A stretch of 10,135 bases of DNA from Candidatus Saccharimonadota bacterium. Lineage in GTDB: Bacteria; Patescibacteriota; Saccharimonadia; Saccharimonadales; UBA4665. Below the pieces are notes generated by a model that made no database searches, was not told the origin of the DNA, and was given only the letters and a program-made list of their open reading frames with translations. The position numbers were made by a program, and so were the translations under genes. The stretch covers positions 1-10,135 of the forward strand of contig DAHVAE010000021.1 in the NCBI GenBank assembly GCA_027314795.1, written 5' to 3'. Of this stretch, positions 1-10,135 are shown one piece after another. Positions within the stretch are counted from its first letter, which is position 1; each line of letters opens with the position of its first letter.

Positions 1-42
1 GCAGTTAACTATTAGTTGAGTAGCTAGATAGTTTCATAATTT

Positions 43-444
43 TTAAAAGTGATTTTCTACTAGTAACTTTTTTCTTAGTGCTGCAAAATGATAACTTTTC
101 ACCATTGCATGCTTTACGCCCCTTCGGATCCCGTTCATTAGTATCATTTCATCTAAAGAATTTACAGCCTCCCTGTTCATGTCAGGAAGCTCGCTACAAA
201 AATGTTGGAATCGTTCTGAGCATTTCTGACGAAGTTCATTATGCCAGTCAGCCAGGCCCTGAGCTTCTTGTCCTATTGTGTCTGAGTGTTCAAAAAAAGA
301 AGGTGCCACTAACCCCGTAATTATAGCAATAGCATCTGTCCTTGGCATTCCTGTTTCAATTAATGCTGGAATTACGTATGCATCGTTGGTAAATTGACAG
401 CTAAGTCTGTCTGTAGCATCGGCAGTTTCGAATGAGGTATTCAT
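43..444 (-). CDS. Hypothetical protein, 133 aa, unknown function
   Basis: I do not recognise this protein. It is a soluble-looking, probably mostly helical polypeptide with no signal peptide or membrane segment. It has three cysteines: one near the N-terminus and two in a central charged stretch (KCSERFQHFC). The C-terminus is basic. The start at 444 is supported by a promoter rather than a ribosome binding site: a TACAAT box lies 8 bases upstream of the ATG, so the mRNA should begin at or next to the start codon. The gene follows the PilB-type ATPase gene on the same strand with a 45-base gap that holds this promoter, so it may be transcribed alone as well as by read-through. A link to pili is only positional. 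The reading frame is intact and ends in TAA. Confidence 0.7.
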   Translation of the reverse strand: MNTSFETADATDRLSCQFTNDAYVIPALIETGMPRTDAIAIITGLVAPSFFEHSDTIGQEAQGLADWHNELRQKCSERFQHFCSELPDMNREAVNSLDEMILMNGIRRGVKHAMVKSYHFAALRKKLLVENHF

Positions 445-452
445 AGATGCAT

Positions 453-481
453 ATTGTACAACCTAAAAGATTAACAAGCAA
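453..481 (-). promoter_or_regulatory. Sigma-70-type promoter for the 133-aa gene, leaderless geometry
   Basis: On the minus strand TTGCTT (476-481) is followed by exactly 17 bases and then TACAAT (453-458), which matches the -10 consensus at 5 of 6 bases. The -35 box keeps only the TTG. The ATG at 444 begins 8 bases after the -10 box, so the predicted transcript has almost no leader. No Shine-Dalgarno sequence lies at normal distance; an AGG sits about 17 bases away, too far to help. Confidence 0.5.
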
Positions 482-489
482 AATACTAT

Positions 490-2097
490 CTAACCGACAA
501 CCCTGAACATTTCTTCAAGTGTTGTCAGCCCGGCAATAACTTTAAGAGCAGCATCTTGAATCATCGTAGCCATGCCACTGTTTATTGCTGCCGCTTCGAT
601 TTGTGGTGCGGTCACACGTTTATCTGTTGAGGTTAGTATTGATCTGATATCGTCAGACATTAAGAATTGTTCACGAATTGCTATCTGGCCTTTATAGCCG
701 TAAGGATTAGCTGCTGTCGCTAATGGTTTAAATAGTTCTAAGTTATTCAAGTCTGGCCTTTGAACATTGGCAGGCAAACCGTTAATTATTTCATTAAGTC
801 TATTTAGTTCGTCTGCAGTTGCCTGGTATGCCTGTTTAGAACTTGGGTCTAGGCTTCGAACTAATCTTTGAGCCATTACTAGACGGATAGCTGATATATA
901 CAGCGGGTTTTGATTAATTATGTCTGCCAGGCGAGTAATGGCAGCAGCAGCTGAATTTGCATGAAAGGTGCTTAAGACCAAGTGGCCAGTCATGGCGGCT
1001 TGCAAGGCAGCTCTCGCTGTATCCATATCCCTTATCTCGCCAACCATGATAATATCTGGGTCTAGCCTTAAAACAGCTCTTAACTGATCAGCGAAAATAG
1101 ACTCGTTAGCTTCTTCTGAGGTTTTAACTGATATCTGCGTAATGCCTTTAAACTGGTATTCAACCGGGTCCTCAATAGTGATGATTTTCCTCTCTTCGTT
1201 GGATAGCGACTGAAGCATTGAATAAAGGGTAGTAGTTTTACCTGACCCTGTCGGACCAACAATCATGACTAAGCCACTTGGTTTAGAGATAATACCATCA
1301 ACTACTGCTCGTTCTGTCTGAGATAAGCCTAGTTTATCGAGATTATACATCGATTCGTTTAAGTTAAATAACCTCATGACTACGTCCATAGAGTGGATCG
1401 TCTGAACAGTTTCGAGCCTGACGTTAACTTCAACGTGAGATTTATCTGCCATGGTAACTGATTGGGAGATATGGCCCTGCTGGGCTTCTTTAGACGAAGT
1501 TGAGATGTCACCGGCATTAGCAATTGCCGATAACAAGACTCGGTATTTGTCATAAGTTAGATTGGCTATGGGATGAAGCACGCCGTCAATACGAAAACGG
1601 ATCCTAACCCCATTGACCTGAGATTCAAGGTGGATATCCGAAGCGTTTAAACGGTGGGCCTGCTGAACCAGGTAGGCAAGCATGTCGTTAGCTTTAATTT
1701 GATTTAAAATATTAGATATCTCAACGACCATTTGATCGCTAGATGCGCTAGATAATTCGATCTCTTTATAGGTAATCTTTGGCGGCGGGTCATAGAGGTT
1801 AAGGTAATCATTAAACCCATTGTCTGAGATTAGGGCTGTTTTCAGTCGCTGATCGTTATATGTCTGATTTAGCCAGTTAAGCGTTTGTTGGGACGTAGTT
1901 GTTGTTATACCAAACAAAATGTTACTTTTGTCGGCCTGAATTGGTACGACCCTGAGTTGTTTAATCTGTGGAGTCGATAATATATCACTGTATAATGTTT
2001 TATTAGTAATCTTAGAGGTGTCAACGTAATTTAGCCCTAGTACTCGAGCTCGCCTTTCGGTTGATTGTTCTTCATCTAGCCTGGCGTCTTGACTCAT
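490..2097 (-). CDS. pilB: PilB/GspE-family type IV pilus or type II secretion assembly ATPase, cysteine-free
   Basis: This is a cytoplasmic hexameric ATPase of the kind that powers extension of type IV pilus-like fibres. Residues about 10-105 form an MshEN-like N-terminal domain. The N2 domain follows (ASDIHLE at 152-158, arginine-rich RIRFRIDG at 165-172). The motor then shows the Walker A GPTGSGKT (281-288), the Asp box TIEDPVEY (307-314), Walker B DPDIIMVGEIRD (346-357) and the His box GHLVLSTFHA (371-380). At 535 residues it is near full family length. It is odd that the zinc-binding tetracysteine insertion expected around 415-470 is present as a segment but has no cysteine; the whole protein has none. 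The flanking MAQRLVR and GYKGQ anchors are kept. No other pilus gene is in the window, so a paralogue with a specialised role is possible. The start at 2097 fits a TATAAT box 7 bases upstream. PilB versus GspE cannot be settled here. Confidence 0.88.
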   Translation of the reverse strand: MSQDARLDEEQSTERRARVLGLNYVDTSKITNKTLYSDILSTPQIKQLRVVPIQADKSNILFGITTTTSQQTLNWLNQTYNDQRLKTALISDNGFNDYLNLYDPPPKITYKEIELSSASSDQMVVEISNILNQIKANDMLAYLVQQAHRLNASDIHLESQVNGVRIRFRIDGVLHPIANLTYDKYRVLLSAIANAGDISTSSKEAQQGHISQSVTMADKSHVEVNVRLETVQTIHSMDVVMRLFNLNESMYNLDKLGLSQTERAVVDGIISKPSGLVMIVGPTGSGKTTTLYSMLQSLSNEERKIITIEDPVEYQFKGITQISVKTSEEANESIFADQLRAVLRLDPDIIMVGEIRDMDTARAALQAAMTGHLVLSTFHANSAAAAITRLADIINQNPLYISAIRLVMAQRLVRSLDPSSKQAYQATADELNRLNEIINGLPANVQRPDLNNLELFKPLATAANPYGYKGQIAIREQFLMSDDIRSILTSTDKRVTAPQIEAAAINSGMATMIQDAALKVIAGLTTLEEMFRVVG

Positions 2098-2103
2098 GGA
2101 ACG

Positions 2104-2110
2104 TATTATA
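2104..2110. promoter_or_regulatory. Overlapping bidirectional -10 element (pilB-type gene / SpoU methyltransferase gene)
   Basis: The seven bases TATTATA read as TATTAT on the plus strand (2104-2109) and as a perfect TATAAT on the minus strand (2110-2105). Going left, 7 bases separate the box from the ATPase ATG at 2097. Going right, 8 bases separate it from an ATG at 2118. One symmetric -10 box would therefore give two divergent, essentially leaderless mRNAs. Neither side has a convincing -35 hexamer at 16-18 bases and neither gene has a Shine-Dalgarno sequence. Promoters with symmetric -10 boxes firing both ways are known in bacteria; their use to start two leaderless genes here is inferred. 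Confidence 0.6.
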
Positions 2111-2117
2111 AATGCTT

Positions 2118-2654
2118 ATGCCTAGAAGCTTAAATAAAAATTCAAGAGTTGTCTTAATTGCTCACAATATACGGAGTACTCATAATGTCGGCTCGTTATT
2201 TCGAACTGCAGAGGGTCTGGGTGTTAGCGAGTTATTATTAAGCGGTTACAGCCCCTACCCTAAATTAACTAGAGATAAGCGATTAGATTATTTAGCCATA
2301 AAACAAGAAAAGCAAATTGAGAAAACTGCTTTAGGATCTCAAAAGATGCTGCCTTGGAGAAAGATTAATAACCTAGCTGCTGAAGTTAGTAAGCTTAGAA
2401 ATGACGGTTATCAGATTGTGGGTCTGGAGCAACATAAAAGAGCCATAAATATTAAGAACTTCAGACCGAAAGACATGATTGCGGTTATTTTAGGTAACGA
2501 GACAACTGGCTTAGAGGCCGATGAAATCAAACTATGCGACCTGATTGTTGAAATACCGATGTTAGGTAAAAAGGAGTCATTTAACGTTGTTCAGGCAGCA
2601 GCCATGGCCTTGTTTGCTATCGTGCATTTAAATTCTAATGTCGATTCGCTTTAA
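2118..2654 (+). CDS. SpoU/TrmH-family (SPOUT) RNA 2'-O-methyltransferase
   Basis: This enzyme transfers a methyl group from S-adenosylmethionine to a ribose 2'-OH of tRNA or rRNA. With the start at 2118 it has 178 residues and consists of little more than the SPOUT trefoil-knot domain. Motif 1 is NIRSTHNVGSLFRTAEGLGV (17-36, with the conserved asparagine and arginine). Motif 2 is LGNETTGL (125-132). Motif 3 is IPMLGKKESFNVVQAAAMA (146-164), close to the usual IPM-G-SLNVS-AA pattern. There is no N-terminal L30e-like RNA-binding domain, so it is a minimal TrmL/TrmH-like form. The RNA target cannot be told from sequence. An in-frame ATG at 2112 exists but lies at or before the predicted transcription start, so 2118 is preferred. 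The gene is divergent from the ATPase gene and has no same-strand partner. Confidence 0.87.
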   Translation: MPRSLNKNSRVVLIAHNIRSTHNVGSLFRTAEGLGVSELLLSGYSPYPKLTRDKRLDYLAIKQEKQIEKTALGSQKMLPWRKINNLAAEVSKLRNDGYQIVGLEQHKRAINIKNFRPKDMIAVILGNETTGLEADEIKLCDLIVEIPMLGKKESFNVVQAAAMALFAIVHLNSNVDSL

Positions 2655-2978
2655 GCCAAGCGGGCCGTATACATAAAGTCAGTTTTACCTACAGGCCAGT
2701 AGCTTCATTTAGTTTTAGTTAGGACCCAATATGTCTATGAACGTATCCAAATGGCAGGCTACTGTTGCGGTGCATGAATCTAAAATAAATATCCTTACCT
2801 TGAGGCAACTTGTAGGTGAAAAATAAATAACAACGAAGCCTATAATCCTACCCCGGCTTTACCATACTGTTGATAATCGGCGTTTAACAAAGAGATAAGG
2901 TATAGAACTTAGGTTATTCTAGATGCAATTCTAATGGCTATTCCAGTGTCAGAATCTAGCTGATAGTGAATATCTTGA
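2655..2978. other. 324-base stretch between convergent genes without a complete gene
   Basis: The methyltransferase gene enters from the left and the lipoprotein gene from the right. I see no intact protein gene of normal length, tRNA or clear intrinsic terminator with a U-tract. The left part (2683-2821) folds on paper into a three-way junction and is listed separately. Outside that, AAGCGGG (2658-2664) can pair with bases 2852-2859 through one bulged base, which could close a larger structure. The right part (2909-2978) reads in the minus +1 frame like a protein tail and is listed separately. A TATAAT at 2841-2846 has no -35 and no start codon behind it. Confidence 0.6.
2683..2821 (+). ncRNA. 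Candidate structured RNA, three-way junction, not a family I recognise
   Basis: Hand folding gives three adjoining helices. P1 pairs TTTTACCTACAGG (2683-2695) with 2809-2821: 13 pairs, two of them G-U. P2 pairs CAGTAGC (2697-2703) with GCTACTG (2758-2764), continues as CATTT (2706-2710) with AAATG (2749-2753), and ends in a small hairpin around 2718-2742. P3 pairs TTGC (2765-2768) with GCAA (2805-2808) and possibly GGT with ACC inside. Only base 2696 is unpaired at the junction. The G-U pairs favour the plus strand, because they would be A-C mismatches on the other. I see no signature of RNase P RNA, tmRNA, SRP RNA or a hammerhead. No convincing promoter precedes it, so it could be the 3' UTR of the methyltransferase mRNA. 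Chance pairing is not excluded. Confidence 0.3.
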
Positions 2979-3010
2979 TTAAATTTGAACTGCGTTTGGA
3001 TTAATAGCAA
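2909..3010 (-). other. Coding-like out-of-frame tail behind the lipoprotein gene (possible frameshifted C-terminus or tiny ORF)
   Basis: In the +1 frame relative to the lipoprotein, an open stretch runs across and past its stop codon (2979-2981) and ends in TAA at 2909-2911. The 25 or so residues from about 2989 onward contain QFKFNQDIHYQ followed by LDSDTGIAIRI. This looks like real protein: alternating beta-type residues and a D-x-DTG turn. It recalls the C-terminal pattern of FlaG-type proteins (a D-ETG-VIR-like strand), but the match is short. The only start-like codon is a TTG at 3010, with no promoter or Shine-Dalgarno sequence. It may be the true lipoprotein C-terminus separated by a single-base frameshift (mutation or sequencing error), a remnant of a lost gene, or chance. 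Confidence 0.3.
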
Positions 3011-3620
3011 TGTTGTTATCGTTGCTTATATGATCTATGGTGGTTTCAACCTCGCCGACTACTTGTTTATATATGCTGCGAGCCTCTGCTGGGCTCGTGG
3101 TAACTTTCAGCGGAATTGAACCTGGGCTAGCCTGAGTTTCTACTGTCGTTTGGTTTTTTTCGCTAATACTAAATTCGCTACTTGAGGACACGTACTGGTA
3201 GTAAGTTGCTTCCCATCTACCGTTAACTTCTTTACCTAAGTCATAAGCAGCTTCAGGTTTTGTGTTCTTAAGGTCTGCTCCAGGATTATAAAAAGTCACA
3301 TCTATACCTTCGACCGCACTCGTACTATACTTGTTAGTCGGTAAGCCTTTTGCATTGGTTTTAGTAGGATAGGTTACCTGAAGTTCGATTTGTGTATCGT
3401 TAGGTAAAACTGACACCCAATTCTTTTCAATAGCACCGATATTAACGGCTGTAGAGCCGACAAATGAAGTGTTGCTTGTGCTCAGCCCATCTATCTGTGA
3501 TTGTATTCTTACCTCGACCGAGCTAGAAGAAGGTTTAGCTTCGCCACATGCTGTAATGCCGATACCTGCCGCTAGCCCAGCTGCTAAGACTTTGCCAACT
3601 TTCTCAAATGTCTTTTTCAT
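2979..3620 (-). CDS. Predicted surface lipoprotein, 213 aa, unknown function
   Basis: The N-terminus is a type II signal peptide: MKK, then a hydrophobic stretch rich in Ala, Gly and Val, ending in a lipobox ITAC with the lipidated cysteine at residue 25. The mature protein starts CGEAKPSSSS, a serine-rich linker, followed by about 170 residues that look beta-rich and extracellular (many T, V, Y, N and S, few hydrophobic runs). It should sit on the outer face of the cytoplasmic membrane. I recognise no domain. A longer frame opens at 3698, but its first 26 residues spoil the signal peptide and would include the promoter; the start at 3620 has a TATAAT box 7 bases upstream with an extended TGT. 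The extreme C-terminus may be altered: the +1 frame continues in a protein-like way past the stop. The gene stands alone, convergent with the methyltransferase gene. Confidence 0.75.
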   Translation of the reverse strand: MKKTFEKVGKVLAAGLAAGIGITACGEAKPSSSSVEVRIQSQIDGLSTSNTSFVGSTAVNIGAIEKNWVSVLPNDTQIELQVTYPTKTNAKGLPTNKYSTSAVEGIDVTFYNPGADLKNTKPEAAYDLGKEVNGRWEATYYQYVSSSSEFSISEKNQTTVETQASPGSIPLKVTTSPAEARSIYKQVVGEVETTIDHISNDNNIAINPNAVQI

Positions 3621-3627
3621 TATGTAT

Positions 3628-3636
3628 ATTATAACA
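3628..3636 (-). promoter_or_regulatory. Extended -10 promoter of the lipoprotein gene, leaderless geometry
   Basis: On the minus strand TGT directly precedes a perfect TATAAT (3628-3633), an extended -10 (TGn) promoter that can do without a good -35, and none is seen. The ATG at 3620 starts 7 bases after the box, so transcription should begin at the start codon itself. Confidence 0.6.
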
Positions 3637-3780
3637 CAGTTGTTCAGCATATGCCACATTGTTGTGGCGGCGACTATACCTACACGTACTGTAAGCAATA
3701 TTTAAGTGCTTCATTTGTATGTAAATTTTGTTAGTCTTCGATAGTCTCACGGAGAGTGCCCTAAATAGCGTTTGATAAGG

Positions 3781-3786
3781 TATAAT
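3781..3786 (+). promoter_or_regulatory. -10 box upstream of the 3808 membrane-protein gene
   Basis: A perfect TATAAT lies 21 bases before the ATG at 3808. The expected transcription start is about 3793, giving a leader of about 15 bases that ends in AAAGAAA, at best a poor Shine-Dalgarno sequence. No -35 hexamer is evident. The box rules out the upstream TTG at 3772 as a start for this transcript. Confidence 0.45.
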
Positions 3787-3807
3787 ATAACTAAACTATT
3801 AAAGAAA

Positions 3808-4218
3808 ATGACTTTAGTAAAAACAAAACATCGCACTACGGTTAATCAACGAAAAGTGACTGGTTCGCATCACCGTAAAAGTGGCAAGTATTTAAAGCCA
3901 TATTGGCCGTACTTACCAATAATCCTTATCTTAGGTGGCGCCTTTATAGCTAACGATTATCTGCCAAGGTCCTTTAGCAATAGTTTTGTTACAACTACCA
4001 ATAGCGCCCGAATAGACTCAATAATCGGTAGCCACAACAGCTTACTTATCGGTTTAATGACCGGCTCATTAGTCCTGTTAATTGTTTGGTTGGCCTTTCG
4101 CCACTTGCGAATATTTAAAAAGTTAGTCCTTGAAGGTGAGCAAATTGTTACTCGTAACTTCATGCTCGATATTGTTTTCGCTTTATTTATTGCTGGGCTT
4201 TATATAATGCTACGTTAA
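3808..4218 (+). CDS. Small membrane protein, 136 aa, resembling the ends of a CAP-domain membrane protein
   Basis: A basic, histidine-containing N-terminus (about residues 1-30) leads to three hydrophobic segments: a first one starting with PYWPYLPIIL (about 32-50), a second at about 79-101 (LLIGLMTGSLVLLIVWL) and a third near the C-terminus (LDIVFALFIAGLYIML). From memory, the opening wording (histidines, then PYWPYLP) and the closing wording (basic residues, GE-IV, LDIV) resemble the two ends of CAP/SCP-domain membrane proteins of Saccharibacteria and relatives. Here the two ends are joined by only about 25 residues and no CAP domain is present. This resemblance is unverified. The start at 3808 is chosen because the promoter -10 box lies inside the longer frame that begins at TTG 3772. 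The stop overlaps the dnaE stop: the four bases TTAA at 4215-4218 hold both. Function is unknown. Confidence 0.68.
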   Translation: MTLVKTKHRTTVNQRKVTGSHHRKSGKYLKPYWPYLPIILILGGAFIANDYLPRSFSNSFVTTTNSARIDSIIGSHNSLLIGLMTGSLVLLIVWLAFRHLRIFKKLVLEGEQIVTRNFMLDIVFALFIAGLYIMLR

Positions 4219-7200
4219 TTTAGAGCAAGGTTTTCAACTCCGACAAGCTCTTTTAATCTTCCCAAGGCTTCTTGGTTTGAATGGTCGAACCCCTTAGGTA
4301 GTCTAATAGCCTGGCGAGCATTTATCTCGTCTAAAACTAAAATTACCTTGGTGTCACCAAGGTATTTGTCTATGGTGTTTTTAAGATTAGTTAGTAGCCG
4401 GTCGTCAGAAGTATCTTTGAGTTTGATATATAACTTAAGATCATCTTTAGCCTTAAGATTACCGTCGTCTTCGGCCTCTTTGGTCGCTTCATTAGCTATT
4501 TGTTCAATGCTCTCTAGGACTAGGCTTTTTTGATTATCGTTTACAGACGAAGTTCTTGAAGACACTCTGGCATGAAAAAGATATATTTTGTCTCTTGATA
4601 AATAACTCATGAATTTAGCGTAAACTTTAGGGAATACCACCATTTCAAGTTCGCTAGTCATATCTTCAATTCGCATAAAAGCCATACGTTGACCTTTTTT
4701 AGTGTTTACCTCTTTCAGCTCGAGGATTAATCCGCCAACGGTAACAGGTGCATCATTAGTCAAGCCCTTTATCTGATTAAGCGGTAGGCAATTCTTTTTT
4801 AAATAGTTGGTTAGATCAGCCAGCGGATGCTGACTTAAATATATGCCAAGCAGCTCTCTTTCCCAATTTAAATATTGCTTGTCAGTTTGTTTATTATTGT
4901 TCGTATCTAAGTCCAGTTTGGCGCTAATTAGATTGGAGTCAGTAGAGTCATTTTCATTAAAAAGGTTTAGCTGCTTCGACTCAACGACTTTTTGGTGTTT
5001 GGCAGCATAAGCTATCAGCAGGTCTATATTCTTTAGAAGCACAGATCTTTCGTAAAATCGGTCAAAGGCTCCAGTTTTAATCAGGCTTTCAAGAGCTTTC
5101 TTGTTAACTATCCTTGCATTCACTCTAGTTAGGTAGTCCTCAAGACTTGTGAATGGATTTTCACCCCGGGCTTCAACTATGGCTTCAGCAGCAGCAGCAC
5201 CAACGTTTTTAATAGCCTTAAAGCCAAACCGAATTTGGTTCTTTTTGGGTACAATACCAAATTCTACAAATGATTCGTTAATATCCGGCGCTAGAACTTC
5301 TATACCTATGTGGCGGCATTCAGCTATCTCGATAGCTAGTCTATCGATATTGTCATAATCTGTAGTCATCAGGGCTGCCATAAAAGCATCGGGGTAATGA
5401 GCTTTAAGGTAAGCCGTCCAATAAGAAATTTGGGCATAGCAGGTGGCGTGGGCTTTAGGGAATGAATAGTCCGCAAAAGGCTGAATTTGAGACCAAAGCT
5501 CTTTGGCTTGCTTTTCAGTCAAGCCTTGACGAAGAGAGCCGTCAATAAACTTAGGTTCTTCGCCTTGAAGGATATCTCGCTTTTTTTTACCGATAGCTTT
5601 ACGTACAAGGTCGGCCTCGCCTGCGGAATAGCCAGCTACTCTTTGCAGTAACTGAATAATTTGCTCTTGGTAAACCATCACTCCATAAGTGTCTTTAAGT
5701 ATTGGCTCTAGTGATTGGTGCAAGTACTTAATGCTTTTCGGATGGTTCTTGCCCTCGATAAACCGTGGAATTTCCGACAAAGGACCTGGCCGATATAAGG
5801 CATTCATGGCTATGATGTCCGTGAATATAGTTGGTTTAAGCTCTTTAAGATAACGCTTCATACCGGCTGATTCCATTTGAAAAACTCCAACTGTATCGGC
5901 TCTACGGAGTAGATCAAAGGTCTGCTTATCGTCATTGGGTAGTTCGTCAATGTTAATGGAATCTTTATATACCCTTCGGATTATTCGCTGGGCGTTTCTA
6001 ATCGTTGTTAAGTTAGACAAGCCTAAAAAGTCTATTTTAAGCAGTCCCAGCTCATCTATTGGGCCCATTGAGTATTGAGTAGCTATAACACCTTTTTGAG
6101 CCATCTCTAGAGGAGTAAAGTTGACTATATAGTCAGGTGCTATAACAACACCGGCAGCATGAACACCGTGACTTCTAATGGTGCCTTCAAGCTGCATGGC
6201 CAAGTCAAAAACCTTTTTTGCTGTTTCGTTTGTCTTGTACTCAGCTTTCAGTTGCTGATCGGATTCCAGTGACTTCTTCAGAGGTATATGTCTGCCCTGG
6301 ACTGGCAGTGGCAACATTTTGGCTAGTCGATCAGCTTCAGCGTAGGGTACCTCTAAAACTCTTGCAACATCTCTGACCGCGTTTCTAGCTGCCATCTTAC
6401 CGAAAGTGACAATGTTGGCAACTTTTTCTCTGCCGTACTTACGAACACAGTATTCAATTACTTCGTCACGACGTGTATCTTGGATATCTATGTCTATATC
6501 TGGCATCGATACCCGCGAAGGATTTAGGAACCTTTCAAACATCAAATTATATTCAAGTGGATCAACTTCGGTAATTCGTAAAGCATAAGAAACTATTGAG
6601 CCAGCCGATGATCCTCTGCCAGGACCAAAAATAACCTTATGGTTTTTACCCCAGTTAATAAAGTCTTGCACAATTAAAAAGTAACCGCTAAAACCCATGG
6701 AGTGTATAACGCTCAGTTCATACTCGGCTCGTTCGAGTATCTCTTTTGGTAGTACTTCTTTAGTCTTTTCAAGCGTCAGTTTAGCAGCTTCATCACGACT
6801 TAGCCGGCCGTAGCGCCAGGCGAGGCCGCGGTGAACAAGTAAATCTAAAAACGTCTTTTCGTTTTGGCCGGTTGGTAGTGGAAACTTAGGTATTAGTATT
6901 TTGCCTAGTGGTATAGTTACGTCAGATTTATCGGCTATTATTTTAGTGTTTTTAATTAACTCAGGGTGAGCTTTACCCCACCGTTTGATGATTTCTTTTG
7001 GATCGGTAACGTAAAGATTAAACTCACTTAGGCTCATGCGGTCTTTATCGGCTAGGAATGAGTTTGTTTGAATGCAAAGCAAAACTTCATGGGCTGTTTG
7101 GTCTTCAGGTTTTAAATAATGAGCATCACTAGTAACAACCATTGGGAGCTTGAGCTGGTCGGCAATTTTAAACAGTTGGTTATTAATGTTTTCTTGGGTT

Positions 7201-7808
7201 TTGTTATAGGTTGGATGATTTGGGTGGCCGTGATCTTGGACTTCCAGATAGTAGCGTTCTTTAAAGGTGGTTTTATACCATTTGGCAATTTTAAGAGCTT
7301 GGTCATACAGCCCTTGATCTAGTGCTTGTCCAATTTCACTGCCCATACAGCCACTTAAGCAAATTAGACCTTCTGCGTACTTAGCGAGTGTTTGGCGATC
7401 TATTCGTGGCTTGTAATAATAGCCATCAAGATTAGCTATTGAAGATAACTTCATTAAGTTTTTATAGCCTGCGTTGTTAATAGCGAGCAATATTAAGTGG
7501 TAATTTTCCTTATCTAAGTTACTTTCTTTGTCGCTTAGTTTTCTAGCTGCGACGTAGGTTTCTATCCCCAGCAGCGGCTTGATTGATTTATGATTAGCCT
7601 CTTTATAAAACTCAATAAGTCCGCTTAGCGTACCATGATCAGTTATGGCAACCGACTCCATGCCGGCGGATTTAACTGCTTCCATGAGTTCTGGAATCTT
7701 GGTTAGCCCATCAAGTAGGCTATACTGCGTATGGTTGTGCAGGTGTACGAAATCTTTAGCAGTTAGGGTTTTTCTTTGAACCAATTGTCCCTCCATAACG
7801 GGTGGCAT
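4215..7808 (-). CDS. dnaE: DNA polymerase III alpha subunit (replicative polymerase)
   Basis: This is the catalytic subunit of the chromosomal replicase, 1197 residues, normal for DnaE. The N-terminal PHP domain carries all nine metal ligands by comparison with remembered mycobacterial DnaE1: H24, H26, D33, H58, E83, H104, C154, D228 and H230. It is therefore probably an active 3'-5' proofreading exonuclease. The polymerase part shows GPGRGSSAGS (395-404), the catalytic aspartates in PDIDIDI (436-442) and the third in KIDFLGL (D593). Helix-hairpin-helix wording lies at about 865-900. QLNLF (946-950) is a near-ideal sliding-clamp binding motif. The OB fold is at about 1020-1085, followed by a short C-terminal domain. 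The start at 7808 has no Shine-Dalgarno sequence but a TATAAT 10 bases upstream. It is convergent with the 3808 gene (overlapping stops) and divergent from the 7903 gene. Confidence 0.97.
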   Translation of the reverse strand: MPPVMEGQLVQRKTLTAKDFVHLHNHTQYSLLDGLTKIPELMEAVKSAGMESVAITDHGTLSGLIEFYKEANHKSIKPLLGIETYVAARKLSDKESNLDKENYHLILLAINNAGYKNLMKLSSIANLDGYYYKPRIDRQTLAKYAEGLICLSGCMGSEIGQALDQGLYDQALKIAKWYKTTFKERYYLEVQDHGHPNHPTYNKTQENINNQLFKIADQLKLPMVVTSDAHYLKPEDQTAHEVLLCIQTNSFLADKDRMSLSEFNLYVTDPKEIIKRWGKAHPELIKNTKIIADKSDVTIPLGKILIPKFPLPTGQNEKTFLDLLVHRGLAWRYGRLSRDEAAKLTLEKTKEVLPKEILERAEYELSVIHSMGFSGYFLIVQDFINWGKNHKVIFGPGRGSSAGSIVSYALRITEVDPLEYNLMFERFLNPSRVSMPDIDIDIQDTRRDEVIEYCVRKYGREKVANIVTFGKMAARNAVRDVARVLEVPYAEADRLAKMLPLPVQGRHIPLKKSLESDQQLKAEYKTNETAKKVFDLAMQLEGTIRSHGVHAAGVVIAPDYIVNFTPLEMAQKGVIATQYSMGPIDELGLLKIDFLGLSNLTTIRNAQRIIRRVYKDSINIDELPNDDKQTFDLLRRADTVGVFQMESAGMKRYLKELKPTIFTDIIAMNALYRPGPLSEIPRFIEGKNHPKSIKYLHQSLEPILKDTYGVMVYQEQIIQLLQRVAGYSAGEADLVRKAIGKKKRDILQGEEPKFIDGSLRQGLTEKQAKELWSQIQPFADYSFPKAHATCYAQISYWTAYLKAHYPDAFMAALMTTDYDNIDRLAIEIAECRHIGIEVLAPDINESFVEFGIVPKKNQIRFGFKAIKNVGAAAAEAIVEARGENPFTSLEDYLTRVNARIVNKKALESLIKTGAFDRFYERSVLLKNIDLLIAYAAKHQKVVESKQLNLFNENDSTDSNLISAKLDLDTNNNKQTDKQYLNWERELLGIYLSQHPLADLTNYLKKNCLPLNQIKGLTNDAPVTVGGLILELKEVNTKKGQRMAFMRIEDMTSELEMVVFPKVYAKFMSYLSRDKIYLFHARVSSRTSSVNDNQKSLVLESIEQIANEATKEAEDDGNLKAKDDLKLYIKLKDTSDDRLLTNLKNTIDKYLGDTKVILVLDEINARQAIRLPKGFDHSNQEALGRLKELVGVENLALN
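4344..4364. terminator. Perfect 10-bp inverted repeat inside dnaE, possible terminator for the convergent gene
   Basis: TACCTTGGTG (4344-4353) and CACCAAGGTA (4355-4364) are exact reverse complements around one central base, giving a strong RNA hairpin on either strand. On the minus strand it is followed by AATTTTAGTTTTAG, on the plus strand by ATTTGTC and, a little later, TTTTT. Because the two convergent genes share their stop bases, any terminator must lie inside a gene. This hairpin is about 126 bases past the stop of the 3808 gene and could end that transcript. On the minus strand it would cut dnaE mRNA before its stop, so terminator activity that way is unlikely. Confidence 0.35.
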
Positions 7809-7818
7809 ATTTAGTTAA

Positions 7819-7847
7819 ATTATACAAGATAAACTCAACACTATCAC
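7819..7847 (-). promoter_or_regulatory. dnaE promoter with near-leaderless geometry
   Basis: Minus-strand TATAAT (7819-7824) lies 10 bases before the dnaE ATG, so the mRNA should have a leader of only about 3 bases. A -35-like GTGATA (7842-7847, 4 of 6 consensus bases) sits 17 bases further upstream and falls inside an inverted repeat that could be an operator. Confidence 0.55.
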
Positions 7848-7857
7848 TATTGATAGT
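7840..7857. repeat. 7-bp inverted repeat between divergent promoters, candidate operator
   Basis: ACTATCA (7840-7846) and TGATAGT (7851-7857) are exact reverse complements with a 4-base centre. The left arm overlaps the -35 of dnaE and the right arm overlaps TTGATA, the likely -35 of the plus-strand gene at 7903. A protein bound here could block or couple both promoters. No regulator gene is recognisable nearby. Confidence 0.4.
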
Positions 7858-7876
7858 CTGCTATTAATATTATAAA
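7850..7876 (+). promoter_or_regulatory. Putative promoter of the 7903 gene
   Basis: TTGATA (7850-7855, 5 of 6 consensus bases) and TATAAA (7871-7876, 5 of 6) are separated by 15 bases, shorter than the ideal 17. An overlapping TATTAT at 7868-7873 is closer still. The predicted transcript would have a leader of about 20 bases, unlike most genes in this window. Confidence 0.35.
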
Positions 7877-7890
7877 GTTTTGAAATAAAT

Positions 7891-7896
7891 AAGGAG
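7891..7896 (+). promoter_or_regulatory. Strong Shine-Dalgarno sequence for the 7903 gene
   Basis: AAGGAG lies 6 bases before the ATG at 7903, an ideal ribosome binding site. It fixes the start codon and contrasts with the neighbouring genes, most of which have none. Confidence 0.8.
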
Positions 7897-7902
7897 AGTT
7901 TT

Positions 7903-8805
7903 ATGCCGCCCTTTAAAAAAAACTGTGAAGTTGACCCTTTGTTTAACGGTGACACTTTAGCTGCTTTAAGAGATAGCGGCGATGGTAAGCCCATATTTGT
8001 AATTGGGCAGGGGTATGAGGATGCGGCTGACGTTACAACCTTAGAGTACCCCGGGACTACGTTTATGGCATTAAATGGTATCGCTAAGTTGATTTCACTA
8101 CAAGCCAGTACCGGCGTCGAGCATATAGTACCTGAAAAAGTTAGCGATTTATTCAATCATTTACGATCAGAATTAGAAGATTTTGAAACAGTATATGGAC
8201 TTAAGCCGGAGCAAGTTTCAGAACAAAGCTTCTCCAGCCAGCTTAGAATAGATCGTAGTGATGGTATTTTACCAATAGTTATACGAAGTACTAGTCAAAG
8301 TAGCTTAGCCAGCGCTAAGGTAGTTGTCGGCCAATCACAAGAACATTTTGATGTGCCTGGTTTAATCAGGACTGCAAGTAAAGCTTCAAGAGAGCGAGTT
8401 AAAGACGTAATTATAGATAAATCGGAGTTTAGAAAGTTTGGCGTCCAAAACAAGGCTTTTGGAACGCTTGTAGCTGATAGAACGTGGGGTATCTTGGTTG
8501 ATCTTTACATTTATCGTCATTACCCAGAAGAGTTTATTGGCAATGCATGGTTTAAACCAGAAAGTTACTTACATGTAAATTTAGACTTTGATGAAGCACC
8601 AGAACATTATTCAAGCCACATGAGGAATAGTTTTAACGGACTGAGGTTATCTACTTTAAAAGAGCTTGTCGATCAAGTAGACAGCGCAGTCGAGAAGCAT
8701 GGTGAGTACGGCCTAAGGATGGTGCTTGGTCAAAGCCCAAGCGTTAACCAAAAAAGTTTTAAATTCATGCAAGCATTCTTGGAGTCAAAAAACCCTAATC
8801 AGTAA
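7903..8805 (+). CDS. Hypothetical protein, 300 aa, unknown function
   Basis: I do not recognise this protein. It looks soluble and cytoplasmic, with mixed alpha and beta composition, no signal peptide or membrane segment and one cysteine (residue 8). The middle has a charged helical stretch (about 150-185, with KASRERVKDVIIDKSEF). A more conserved-looking segment follows (about 190-235) with RTWGILVDLYIYRHYPEEF and then LHVNLDFDE. No nucleotide-binding or metal-binding motif stands out. It is translated from a strong Shine-Dalgarno sequence, unlike its neighbours. It diverges from dnaE across 94 bases with a shared inverted repeat in the promoter region, so co-regulation with dnaE is possible. 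It runs tail-to-tail with the YtxH-like gene, with only 9 bases between the stops. An A8 run (7915-7922) near the start is a site where indels could arise. Confidence 0.78.
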   Translation: MPPFKKNCEVDPLFNGDTLAALRDSGDGKPIFVIGQGYEDAADVTTLEYPGTTFMALNGIAKLISLQASTGVEHIVPEKVSDLFNHLRSELEDFETVYGLKPEQVSEQSFSSQLRIDRSDGILPIVIRSTSQSSLASAKVVVGQSQEHFDVPGLIRTASKASRERVKDVIIDKSEFRKFGVQNKAFGTLVADRTWGILVDLYIYRHYPEEFIGNAWFKPESYLHVNLDFDEAPEHYSSHMRNSFNGLRLSTLKELVDQVDSAVEKHGEYGLRMVLGQSPSVNQKSFKFMQAFLESKNPNQ

Positions 8806-8814
8806 TGTTAAAAG

Positions 8815-9204
8815 CTAATCTTTCTTAATAAATCTCTTCAGATCAGTTAATACTTGCCTTGCATCTTTTAGGGCCTCATCTAGATCCTCGTCAACATTGT
8901 CTTCGCCGTGTATGGCGCTAATAACCGTCTTTACTTTTGCTTGTGACTTTAAGGCTGCCGACTTAGCGTTTTTATATCTAGTTGTTAACTCTGGATTATT
9001 TTTAGCTAACTGATCTAATGTGGCTTTAGTTTGGCTATATATGGTTTTTAAGTCTCGTTCTAAATCGGCTATAGAGCTTTTGGCAGTTTTTTTAAGCTTC
9101 TTTCTGGTTTGAGACCCCTTTCTAGGCGCCGTTAATACTCCTAGCGCATAACCAATAGCTACTAAACCGACACCACCGCTAATTAACTTCCTAAGCTTAG
9201 CCAT
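8815..9204 (-). CDS. YtxH-like membrane-associated protein
   Basis: This 129-residue protein belongs by its look to the YtxH family: an N-terminal hydrophobic, glycine-rich segment (GGVGLVAIGYALGVLTAP, about 10-27), directly followed by the typical basic wording RKGSQTRKKLKK, then a long charged helical region (about 40-128). It should be anchored in the membrane with the helical part in the cytoplasm. The start codon overlaps the stop of the upstream gene as TAATG, and GAGG lies 7 bases before the ATG, so translation is probably coupled. The pairing with the upstream DUF948-like gene resembles the ytxG-ytxH neighbours of Bacillus subtilis. The biochemical role of this family is not established. 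Confidence 0.78.
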   Translation of the reverse strand: MAKLRKLISGGVGLVAIGYALGVLTAPRKGSQTRKKLKKTAKSSIADLERDLKTIYSQTKATLDQLAKNNPELTTRYKNAKSAALKSQAKVKTVISAIHGEDNVDEDLDEALKDARQVLTDLKRFIKKD

Positions 9205-9461
9205 TACTTGACCTCGTGTTCGTTAAAGAAACTATGGATTAACTTGAGTAACGGGAACCTACTTTTGGCGGCTTTACCCATTTGGCTTAAAACGTCAGCA
9301 GCGGAACTGACATTATGGACTACGCGTTCCGCCTGATCGACAACTTTCTTGATTTTATATACGACTATTATCGTTTCAATGACTAAGACGATAATAACTA
9401 AAAATAGAGCGCTTAAGACAATAGTGATTATTAGAAGTTCTATGCTATTGGCTGTCGACAT
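9204..9461 (-). CDS. DUF948/YtxG-like small membrane protein, 85 aa
   Basis: One long N-terminal hydrophobic helix (about residues 7-35, rich in I, L and V) is followed by an amphipathic helix (KIKKVVDQAERVVHNVSSAADVLSQM) and a basic tail. That is the layout of DUF948/YtxG-type proteins: a membrane anchor plus a heptad-like cytoplasmic or coiled-coil segment. The family call rests on layout and context (next to a ytxH-like gene) rather than on diagnostic residues. It lies 6 bases after galU and overlaps ytxH by one base, so the three form an operon. It also has its own promoter inside the end of galU: TATAAT 9 bases before the ATG. No Shine-Dalgarno sequence is seen. Confidence 0.7.
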   Translation of the reverse strand: MSTANSIELLIITIVLSALFLVIIVLVIETIIVVYKIKKVVDQAERVVHNVSSAADVLSQMGKAAKSRFPLLKLIHSFFNEHEVK

Positions 9462-9467
9462 AATATC

Positions 9468-10135
9468 TTAATTATACCCCTCTAGCTCATTTTTTAAGTA
9501 TTGTCTTAGCTCACTCGAGAGATCTGGATCATTAAGAGCAAATTTAAAAACTGTTTTTAGATAGTCTAACTTATCGCCGGTGTCGTGATAGATAGCGTTT
9601 CTAATAGGGCAAGCTATCACCCGCTTATTATCTGCCAGCATTAACTTAAGCGAGTCGTTGTAATGATGTTCGTTATTTGGGCTAAGCTCCTGCTTGCTCT
9701 TGTTTACATACTCTTGAAGCTCGGGTGTAATTATCATGCCGCAAACGGTAGCTTGATCTGAAGGTGATAATTCTTTGCCTGGTTTTTCAATGATTTGGCT
9801 GACTTCAACATAATCCTCATCAATAACGCTGCCAGCCGCAAAGCCATAACGATCATAGTCTCTATCCTCGGTAACTTTTATGGTACTTAGAATTGGGGCT
9901 TTGTATTTATTGTAGGCTTCCAGCATCTGGGCGAAGCGTAAGGGAGTGGCAGAGATAAAATCATCGCTAAAAGTATAAAAGCATGGTTCATCGCCAATTA
10001 GGTGTTGAGTATTTAAAATCGGCGTAGCAGTACCGTAGACGCCCTTTTGCCGCACATATACAAAGTTTGCCATGTCTGCTATTTTTTGAATTTGATCAAG
10101 TAAGTGGGCCTTTTTTTCACCGCCTTGCCTTAAGT
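9468..10135 (-). CDS. galU: UTP--glucose-1-phosphate uridylyltransferase-like protein, partial (N-terminus beyond the window)
   Basis: GalU joins glucose-1-phosphate and UTP to make UDP-glucose for surface sugars. Only the C-terminal 222 or so residues are present: the frame runs open to the window edge, and the ATG at 10073 is internal (ADMANFVYVRQK matches mid-protein wording of the family). Recognisable parts are YVRQKGVYGTATPIL, the metal-binding region FSDDF (usually GDD), VSQIIEKP with the conserved lysine, VCGMIITPEL, and HDTGDKLDYL, which matches the family's DCGDKLGYL. The usual GLGHA after YVRQK is replaced by VYGTA, and GDD by SDD. This may be a lineage variant or a related sugar nucleotidyltransferase. 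The last sense codons GGG TAT AAT double as the -10 box for the next gene. Confidence 0.88.
   Translation of the reverse strand, partial: LRQGGEKKAHLLDQIQKIADMANFVYVRQKGVYGTATPILNTQHLIGDEPCFYTFSDDFISATPLRFAQMLEAYNKYKAPILSTIKVTEDRDYDRYGFAAGSVIDEDYVEVSQIIEKPGKELSPSDQATVCGMIITPELQEYVNKSKQELSPNNEHHYNDSLKLMLADNKRVIACPIRNAIYHDTGDKLDYLKTVFKFALNDPDLSSELRQYLKNELEGYN
9471..9476 (-). promoter_or_regulatory. -10 box embedded in the last codons of galU
   Basis: The minus-strand codons TAT AAT (the final Tyr-Asn of the GalU-like protein) form a perfect -10 box, followed by the TAA stop and, 9 bases after the box, by the ATG of the DUF948-like gene at 9461. The predicted mRNA would start about 2 bases before that ATG. 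No good -35 is visible, so strength is uncertain. Confidence 0.5.

Follow-up and report, generated by a model that had tools for sequence, protein, structure and literature searches.

We analysed a 10,135-nucleotide stretch of DNA (the window), contig C15 of a Saccharibacteria genome of 681,117 bases in 101 contigs with 40% G+C, in which -10 promoter boxes lie only a few bases before several start codons. The results very probably indicate mixed translation initiation, in which a minority of genes with a sigma-70-type -10 box near the start codon would be leaderless, beside genes led by a Shine-Dalgarno site. Box position, promoter grammar and conservation were observed; where transcription starts, and that ribosomes bind directly, we infer from these. 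In the minority genes, 6-8 bases (about 10 at most) would separate the end of the -10 box of a sigma-70-type promoter from the start codon, and RNA polymerase would begin on the ATG's A or a few bases upstream of it. Such an mRNA would carry no Shine-Dalgarno site, and the ribosome would have to bind its 5'-terminal AUG directly. Some other genes would instead combine a promoter 20-36 bases upstream with a Shine-Dalgarno site.

The starts were scored in 40 of the 101 contigs (395,478 bases), where 378 genes were called by a coding score blind to the upstream sequence, and 366 starts had full upstream sequence. A box was defined as TAnnnT with at least 5/6 matches to TATAAT, and its background was measured at distances 40-88 in the same upstream regions of the same genome. 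Boxes at distance 6-10 preceded 78 of the 366 starts, compared with 12.2 expected, and the fullest of the other 5-base bins, from distance 15 on, held 25. By class, they were found at 52/191 divergent or distant genes, 12/51 intermediate genes and 12/108 operon-internal genes. The relatives' loci were the best 80 of at least 584 DnaE matches; DnaE of the window is 73% identical to that of the metagenome-assembled genome LSA5.bin99 (L042) and 51-63% identical to those of the other 79 relatives listed, mostly labelled Candidatus Saccharibacteria. With 79 genes of at least 3 kb (which removes dnaE) and one identical upstream region left out, a box at 6-10 was found at 297 of 1,094 starts (background 35.5), and the peak was weaker inside operons (45/318), as in our own sample. 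The excess of boxed starts thus amounted to 18% of starts in our own sample and 24% in the relatives, or 21-32% where a promoter is likely. An earlier note on this DNA had claimed that most of its genes are leaderless, which is too strong in view of this excess, and 47 of the 191 divergent or distant genes have a Shine-Dalgarno word instead. Its idea of a split strategy, with a promoter-proximal leaderless class beside Shine-Dalgarno-led genes, agreed with both our own sample and the 80 named relatives' loci, the choice being gene-specific.

Six bases separate the -10 box from +1 in textbook geometry, so that at distance 6 the ATG's A would be +1. Among the relatives' 642 divergent or distant genes (dnaE included), boxes at distances 5, 6, 7 and 8 numbered 1, 56, 66 and 37, an abrupt onset at 6 of the kind expected of leaderless mRNAs. 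The genome-scale peak foreseen in the earlier note was therefore present, although at 6-8 and not at 7-10. With the same pipeline and retrained gene calls, 150 kb of E. coli K-12 showed 0/78 non-operon genes boxed and a Shine-Dalgarno site in 36/78, and an earlier run on its first 50 kb gave 1/25 genes boxed (distance 5-10); the control genes were called by the same script, without use of the annotation. ATG was the start codon of 59/62 boxed starts versus 279/304 others in our own sample, and of 250/257 versus 837/917 in the relatives. A Shine-Dalgarno site preceded 0/78 boxed starts in our own sample and 11/297 in the relatives. The mutual exclusion of the two signals (Fisher 5e-15) was kept out of the main evidence, since both compete for the same bases.

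The boxes look like promoters in several features, namely a specific hexamer, a TGn extension and a -35 spacing. Among all 20 arrangements of its letters, TATAAT ranked first in enrichment at distances 6-10 (15.6-fold in our own sample, 19.1-fold in the relatives), followed by TTATAA (8.9 and 6.4) and then by ATAATT (8.1, own) and TAATAT (3.4, relatives). When a -35 match was taken as a TTGACA-like hexamer with 4/6 matches, 46 of 313 boxes in the relatives had one at spacer 17, compared with 7-19 at other spacers. TGn preceded 20/62 boxes at 6-8 in our own sample and 123/244 in the relatives, versus 8/102 and 42/294 far-upstream boxes (8-14%). Boxes at 18-36 were often accompanied by a Shine-Dalgarno site (17/25 divergent, 6/12 distant and 6/10 intermediate genes).

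In the window itself, direct reading confirmed the six hexamers of the earlier note and their distances to the start codon: TACAAT at 8 bases (444), TATAAT at 7 (2097), TATTAT at 8 (2118), TATAAT at 7 (3620), TATAAT at 10 (7808) and TATAAT at 9 (9461). The chance per start of a box in four adjacent distances was 0.0265 (own genome, distances 40-88), and the resulting P of ~7e-8 for 6/10 boxed starts, or ~3e-6 for 5/10, is flattering because the sites had been picked by their boxes; the ten include an incomplete frame at 10073. Leaderlessness in the window is best supported for the T2SSE (2097) and SpoU (2118) genes and is plausible for those starting at 3620 and 444. The further statement that none of the six starts has a usable Shine-Dalgarno sequence failed at dnaE, where GGAGGG serves an in-frame TTG.

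The T2SSE family (PilB-type) ATPase gene (490..2097, minus strand; PF00437, 2.7e-87) was called leaderless, with its TATAAT (2105..2110, minus strand) 7 bases before the ATG. Face to face with it stands the SpoU rRNA methylase gene (2118..2654, plus strand; PF00588), also called leaderless, whose TATTAT (2104..2109, plus strand) lies 8 bases before ATG 2118. The two divergent starts are thus 20 bp apart and their -10 boxes overlap (2104-2110), so that each -35 region would fall in the coding sequence of the other gene. This arrangement is kept in the same-genus genome G001, where the T2SSE ortholog also has TATAAT at distance 7 and the stretch ATTATAAATGCTTATG at the SpoU box is identical. Divergent pairs 0-24 bp apart were 2/56 in our own sample and 9/177 in the relatives, plus 4 overlapping. 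Among the named orthologs of T2SSE, a box at 6-10 was found in 39/67 (control distance 14/67), only a Shine-Dalgarno site in 6 and neither in 22, and among those of SpoU the box was found in 45/68 (control 8/68), only a Shine-Dalgarno site in 2 and neither in 21. The correction of the SpoU start to 2118 was supported by geometry, as the alternative ATG at 2112 precedes the predicted +1; the same-genus genome retains both ATGs, so conservation cannot choose between them.

For dnaE (DNA polymerase III alpha), named by Pfam in the frame as given (4215-7808), the leaderless start at 7808 of the earlier note is most likely wrong. The gene is most likely led by a Shine-Dalgarno site from TTG 7784 (4215..7784, minus strand), which lies 4 bases after GGAGGG (7789..7794, minus strand), and its TATAAT (7819..7824, minus strand) would give a leader of about 28 bases. 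In G001, the single in-frame ATG, GTG or TTG before the conserved stretch of dnaE is a TTG after GGAGG. The TTG 7784 of the window aligns with it without gaps, and TATAAT lies 34 and 32 bases upstream in the two genomes. Start 7808 was rejected on this alignment, the better-supported downstream start being matched in one same-genus genome. Of 76 named dnaE orthologs, 34 had a box, 22 only a Shine-Dalgarno site and 20 neither. As a separate observation, 35 of 42 boxed dnaE orthologs (L042-L121) had, between +4 and +18, a tract of G (GGGG, GAGG or similar), and 19/42 began with ATGGGG, whereas other boxed genes had such a tract in 3-9%. The tract started 12-13 bases past the -10 box in 23/44 dnaE orthologs; possible readings are what is left of a Shine-Dalgarno site, a sequence bound by a regulator, or a place where the ribosome makes contact downstream.

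Chance is extremely improbable as an explanation of the peak. At 40% G+C, words resembling TATAAT abound, but all the counts were made against a background from the same upstream regions and oppose chance genome-wide, although a chance box is possible at single sites such as 9461. We also consider it very unlikely that what resembles TATAAT serves translation of leadered mRNA as an A/U-rich signal, comparable to the non-canonical AT-rich signals of the FCB group described in the available text of PMC9581028. The position matches that of A/U-rich signals, and in the genome G078, of another family, A is strong at -6 while boxes and Shine-Dalgarno sites are few; however, the top rank of TATAAT among its permutations, the -35 peak at 17 bp in the relatives, the TGn extension, the scarcity of boxes inside operons and the edge at 6 all argue for promoters. 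It is likewise unlikely, if slightly less so, that the promoters are real and translation begins not at the called ATG but at a codon further downstream that has a Shine-Dalgarno site of its own. The dnaE genes of the window and of the same genus behave in this way, but in our own sample Shine-Dalgarno-like tracts at +4 to +18 were no more frequent after boxed starts (4/59 boxed at 6-8 and 1/24 boxed at 9-11) than after unboxed ones (12/255); they were found in the relatives without dnaE after 21/239 and 2/64 boxed starts versus 44/726 unboxed.

Some points weigh against mixed initiation as read here. As dnaE and 9461 showed, a box at 9-10 can mislead, and the lack of Shine-Dalgarno sites in boxed genes is partly forced, because the box takes the same bases. 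The starts were called with a coding-score script of our own, the relatives' loci came from one neighbourhood so that their genes are not independent, and the same-genus comparison rests on one genome, as G001 and L042 share sequence. TTATAA and ATAATT, enriched in our own sample, share five letters with TATAAT, and these overlaps were not separated. The -35 peak in our own sample was weak (9/87 at spacer 17, 7 at 18 and 6 at 10), and the relatives' far-upstream boxes also favour spacer 17 (16/170, the next spacer having 13). Across all contigs of this genome, exact TATAAT-N6-8-ATG occurred 45 times compared with 35 at the shifted distance, a weak difference that we take to reflect dilution by matches inside genes. 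The shifted distance was used in place of a reversed-pattern control (50 versus 55 for the pattern), which was set aside because of its differing composition.

The anti-Shine-Dalgarno ACCTCCTTT is intact in the 16S gene of this genome, about half of the operon-internal genes carry a Shine-Dalgarno site, and initiation factor IF3 was found in 18/21 genomes and ribosomal protein bS21 in 20/21. S1-like matches were found in 21/21 genomes, none above the rpsA cut-off (a cut-off reached by only 2 of 14 control genomes), and the match in G010 was just 2e-12. With the anti-Shine-Dalgarno intact and IF3 and bS21 found, both routes can coexist, and leaderless initiation is best read as an addition to the Shine-Dalgarno route and not as its replacement. 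In other bacteria, leaderless mRNAs are taken by the 70S particle. A loss of the anti-Shine-Dalgarno was rejected as the cause of leaderless use, since this genome retains it intact, as do the nine others whose 16S ends were examined, and so was an absence of bS21, S1 or IF3, in view of the counts above. The 16S rRNA gene itself (L001, on contig C35 of this genome, G000) contains an intron of group I (RF00028 at 87.6 bits); close by lies a match to group II D1-D4 (39 bits), and the gene ends (3') some 900 bases beyond the CACCGCCCGTC motif.

Elsewhere in the phylum, the box peak is present in some families and not in others. In 145 genomes, exact TATAAT-N6-8-ATG occurred 8,232 times versus 4,952 for TATAAT-N16-18-ATG; the 6-8 count was higher in 130/145 genomes, 67 of them at one-sided P < 0.01, uncorrected. 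By family, 44/82 reached P < 0.01, and the ratio was 1.1 or lower in 13/82. The genomes examined at gene level were chosen at both extremes, high and low, of these counts and are no random sample; G069, with short contigs only, was excluded before counting. Boxes at 5-10 preceded 12/37 non-operon genes in G129, of the same order (2.3 expected), 19/48 in G145 (1.1) and 20/57 in G127 (1.9), which also had 13/31 boxed in operons and a less clean lower edge (5 boxes at distance 5, 7 at 6). The same count gave 5/64 in G100 (3.7 expected), 6/48 in G134 (2.3), 2/40 in G078 (2.1) and 3/44 in G076 (2.1), and boxes at 6-10 numbered 5/53 in G148 (3.3), 1/30 in G119 (1.1), 4/51 in G041 (2.9) and 2/60 in G123 (1.8).

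Four of these genomes showed another feature, a T before the ATG start (UAUG in the mRNA). It was found in 56/68 starts of G134, 47/62 of G119 and 48/71 of G148 (family f75), and in 50/67 of G076 (f57), that is, 68-82% (loci L143-L145, L150-L154, L163-L168 and L246-L255), compared with 28-39% of their in-frame internal ATGs. Shine-Dalgarno words stood at 2/71, 1/63, 13/77 (17%) and 4/67 of their starts, respectively, and their 16S ends all read CACCTCCTTT, with the anti-Shine-Dalgarno intact. UAUG prevailed both in operon-internal genes (17/18 in G134, 16/20 in G076) and in others (36/45 and 32/44). A milder excess of T at -1 was seen in G129 (31/56), G100 (36/65) and G127 (37/82); our own sample had 140/338 versus 34% internally, and G041 showed little (26/70 versus 30%). 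The U at -1 could pair with the base after the initiator anticodon. Tentatively, and as a possibility rather than the expected outcome, Patescibacteria may have replaced or supplemented the Shine-Dalgarno route in various ways while keeping the anti-Shine-Dalgarno, by leaderless 5'-AUG in Saccharibacteria and other families and by an extended UAUG in at least two families (three genomes of f75, one of f57), both promoter-proximal and operon-internal. A further pattern was observed in G078 (family f58; L146-L149 and L169-L172), where Shine-Dalgarno sites stood at 5/73 starts beside the strong A at -6 and the 2/40 boxed non-operon genes.

A -10 signal close to the start, beside Shine-Dalgarno genes, resembles what is known from Actinobacteria and Deinococcus-Thermus, for which the available text of Zheng et al. 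2011 (PMC3160421) reports a TA-like -10 signal that precedes the start by about 10 bp in ~20% and ~40% of genes; for other groups, that text describes the TAtaaT form as well as a TG extension, the latter in several low-G+C genomes. Unlike here, the groups in the available text include neither Saccharibacteria nor other Patescibacteria, and one unclassified genome is mentioned. As far as the text of PMC9581028 was available, a leaderless class (a GeneMarkS-2 class, with StartLink+) is predicted for 21.6% of bacterial species, and the word Patescibacteria is absent from its main text. In Mycobacterium, leaderless mRNAs are a major class mapped by 5'-end sequencing, according to the available parts of PMC3898074 and PMC4633059, whereas the class in Saccharibacteria is predicted from sequence. 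In the available text of PMC6851277 and PMC7441243, the word leaderless occurs in the reference lists only, and the discussion of PMC12641178, as available, calls YchF, a protein that favours leaderless translation, broadly conserved. Our literature search, whose coverage leaves out most subscription journals, gave no report of leaderless genes for Saccharibacteria or Patescibacteria among the matches listed. Leaderless genes are thus a known kind of system, here in a group without a prior report in the literature searched. Knowledge of uncultured Saccharibacteria and their phylum comes largely from predicted genes, and start calls based on Shine-Dalgarno models may go wrong for the genes that look leaderless, a fifth to a quarter of the total. 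The result offers a usable promoter and start rule for Saccharibacteria, and the choice of start by their ribosomes becomes testable in cultured strains.

Among the other genes of the window, a 133-aa reading frame (43..444, minus strand), possibly a leaderless gene, has TACAAT (453..458, minus strand) 8 bases before its ATG, no Pfam match and a low coding score of 8.3. A predicted lipoprotein gene (2979..3620, minus strand), likely leaderless, has a lipobox ITAC by eye, no Pfam match, and TATAAT in the extended form TGTTATAAT (3628..3633, minus strand) 7 bases before its ATG. For the genes starting at 444, 3620 and 7903, no homolog was found among 98 loci, mostly of the dnaE neighbourhood, and no protein-database search was made. 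At 9461, the TATAAT (9471..9476, minus strand) and its distance of 9 were as claimed, but the leaderless start is doubtful, as the box is also the coding end of the preceding gene (codons TAT AAT, Tyr-Asn, before the TAA stop) and the ortholog in G001 is Shine-Dalgarno-led, with GAGGA ahead of the ATG; translational coupling or a start of the Shine-Dalgarno type is just as likely. A Pfam nucleotidyl transferase match runs from 9468 on, and named orthologs of the NTP transferase had a box in 12 cases and only a Shine-Dalgarno site in 31 (n = 46).

Choosing 3620 and 3808 over longer frames, as proposed earlier, was reasonable, although the 3808 gene has a leader of about 15 bases. Its TATAAT (3781..3786, plus strand) lies 21 bases before the ATG, which suggests a short leader and not a leaderless start. 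The same-genus ortholog, which shares the initial ATGACTTTAGT, is also short-leadered, and with a box count among the orthologs (5/17) no higher than the control (6), the gene is not leaderless. The good Shine-Dalgarno sequences claimed for 7903 and 9204 were both read directly, as AAGGAG (7891..7896, plus strand) and GAGGT (9211..9215, minus strand). The latter precedes the operon-internal YtxH-like gene, whose match at 8815-9204 scores under the family cut-off; its named orthologs carried a Shine-Dalgarno site in 25/25 cases and a box in 0.

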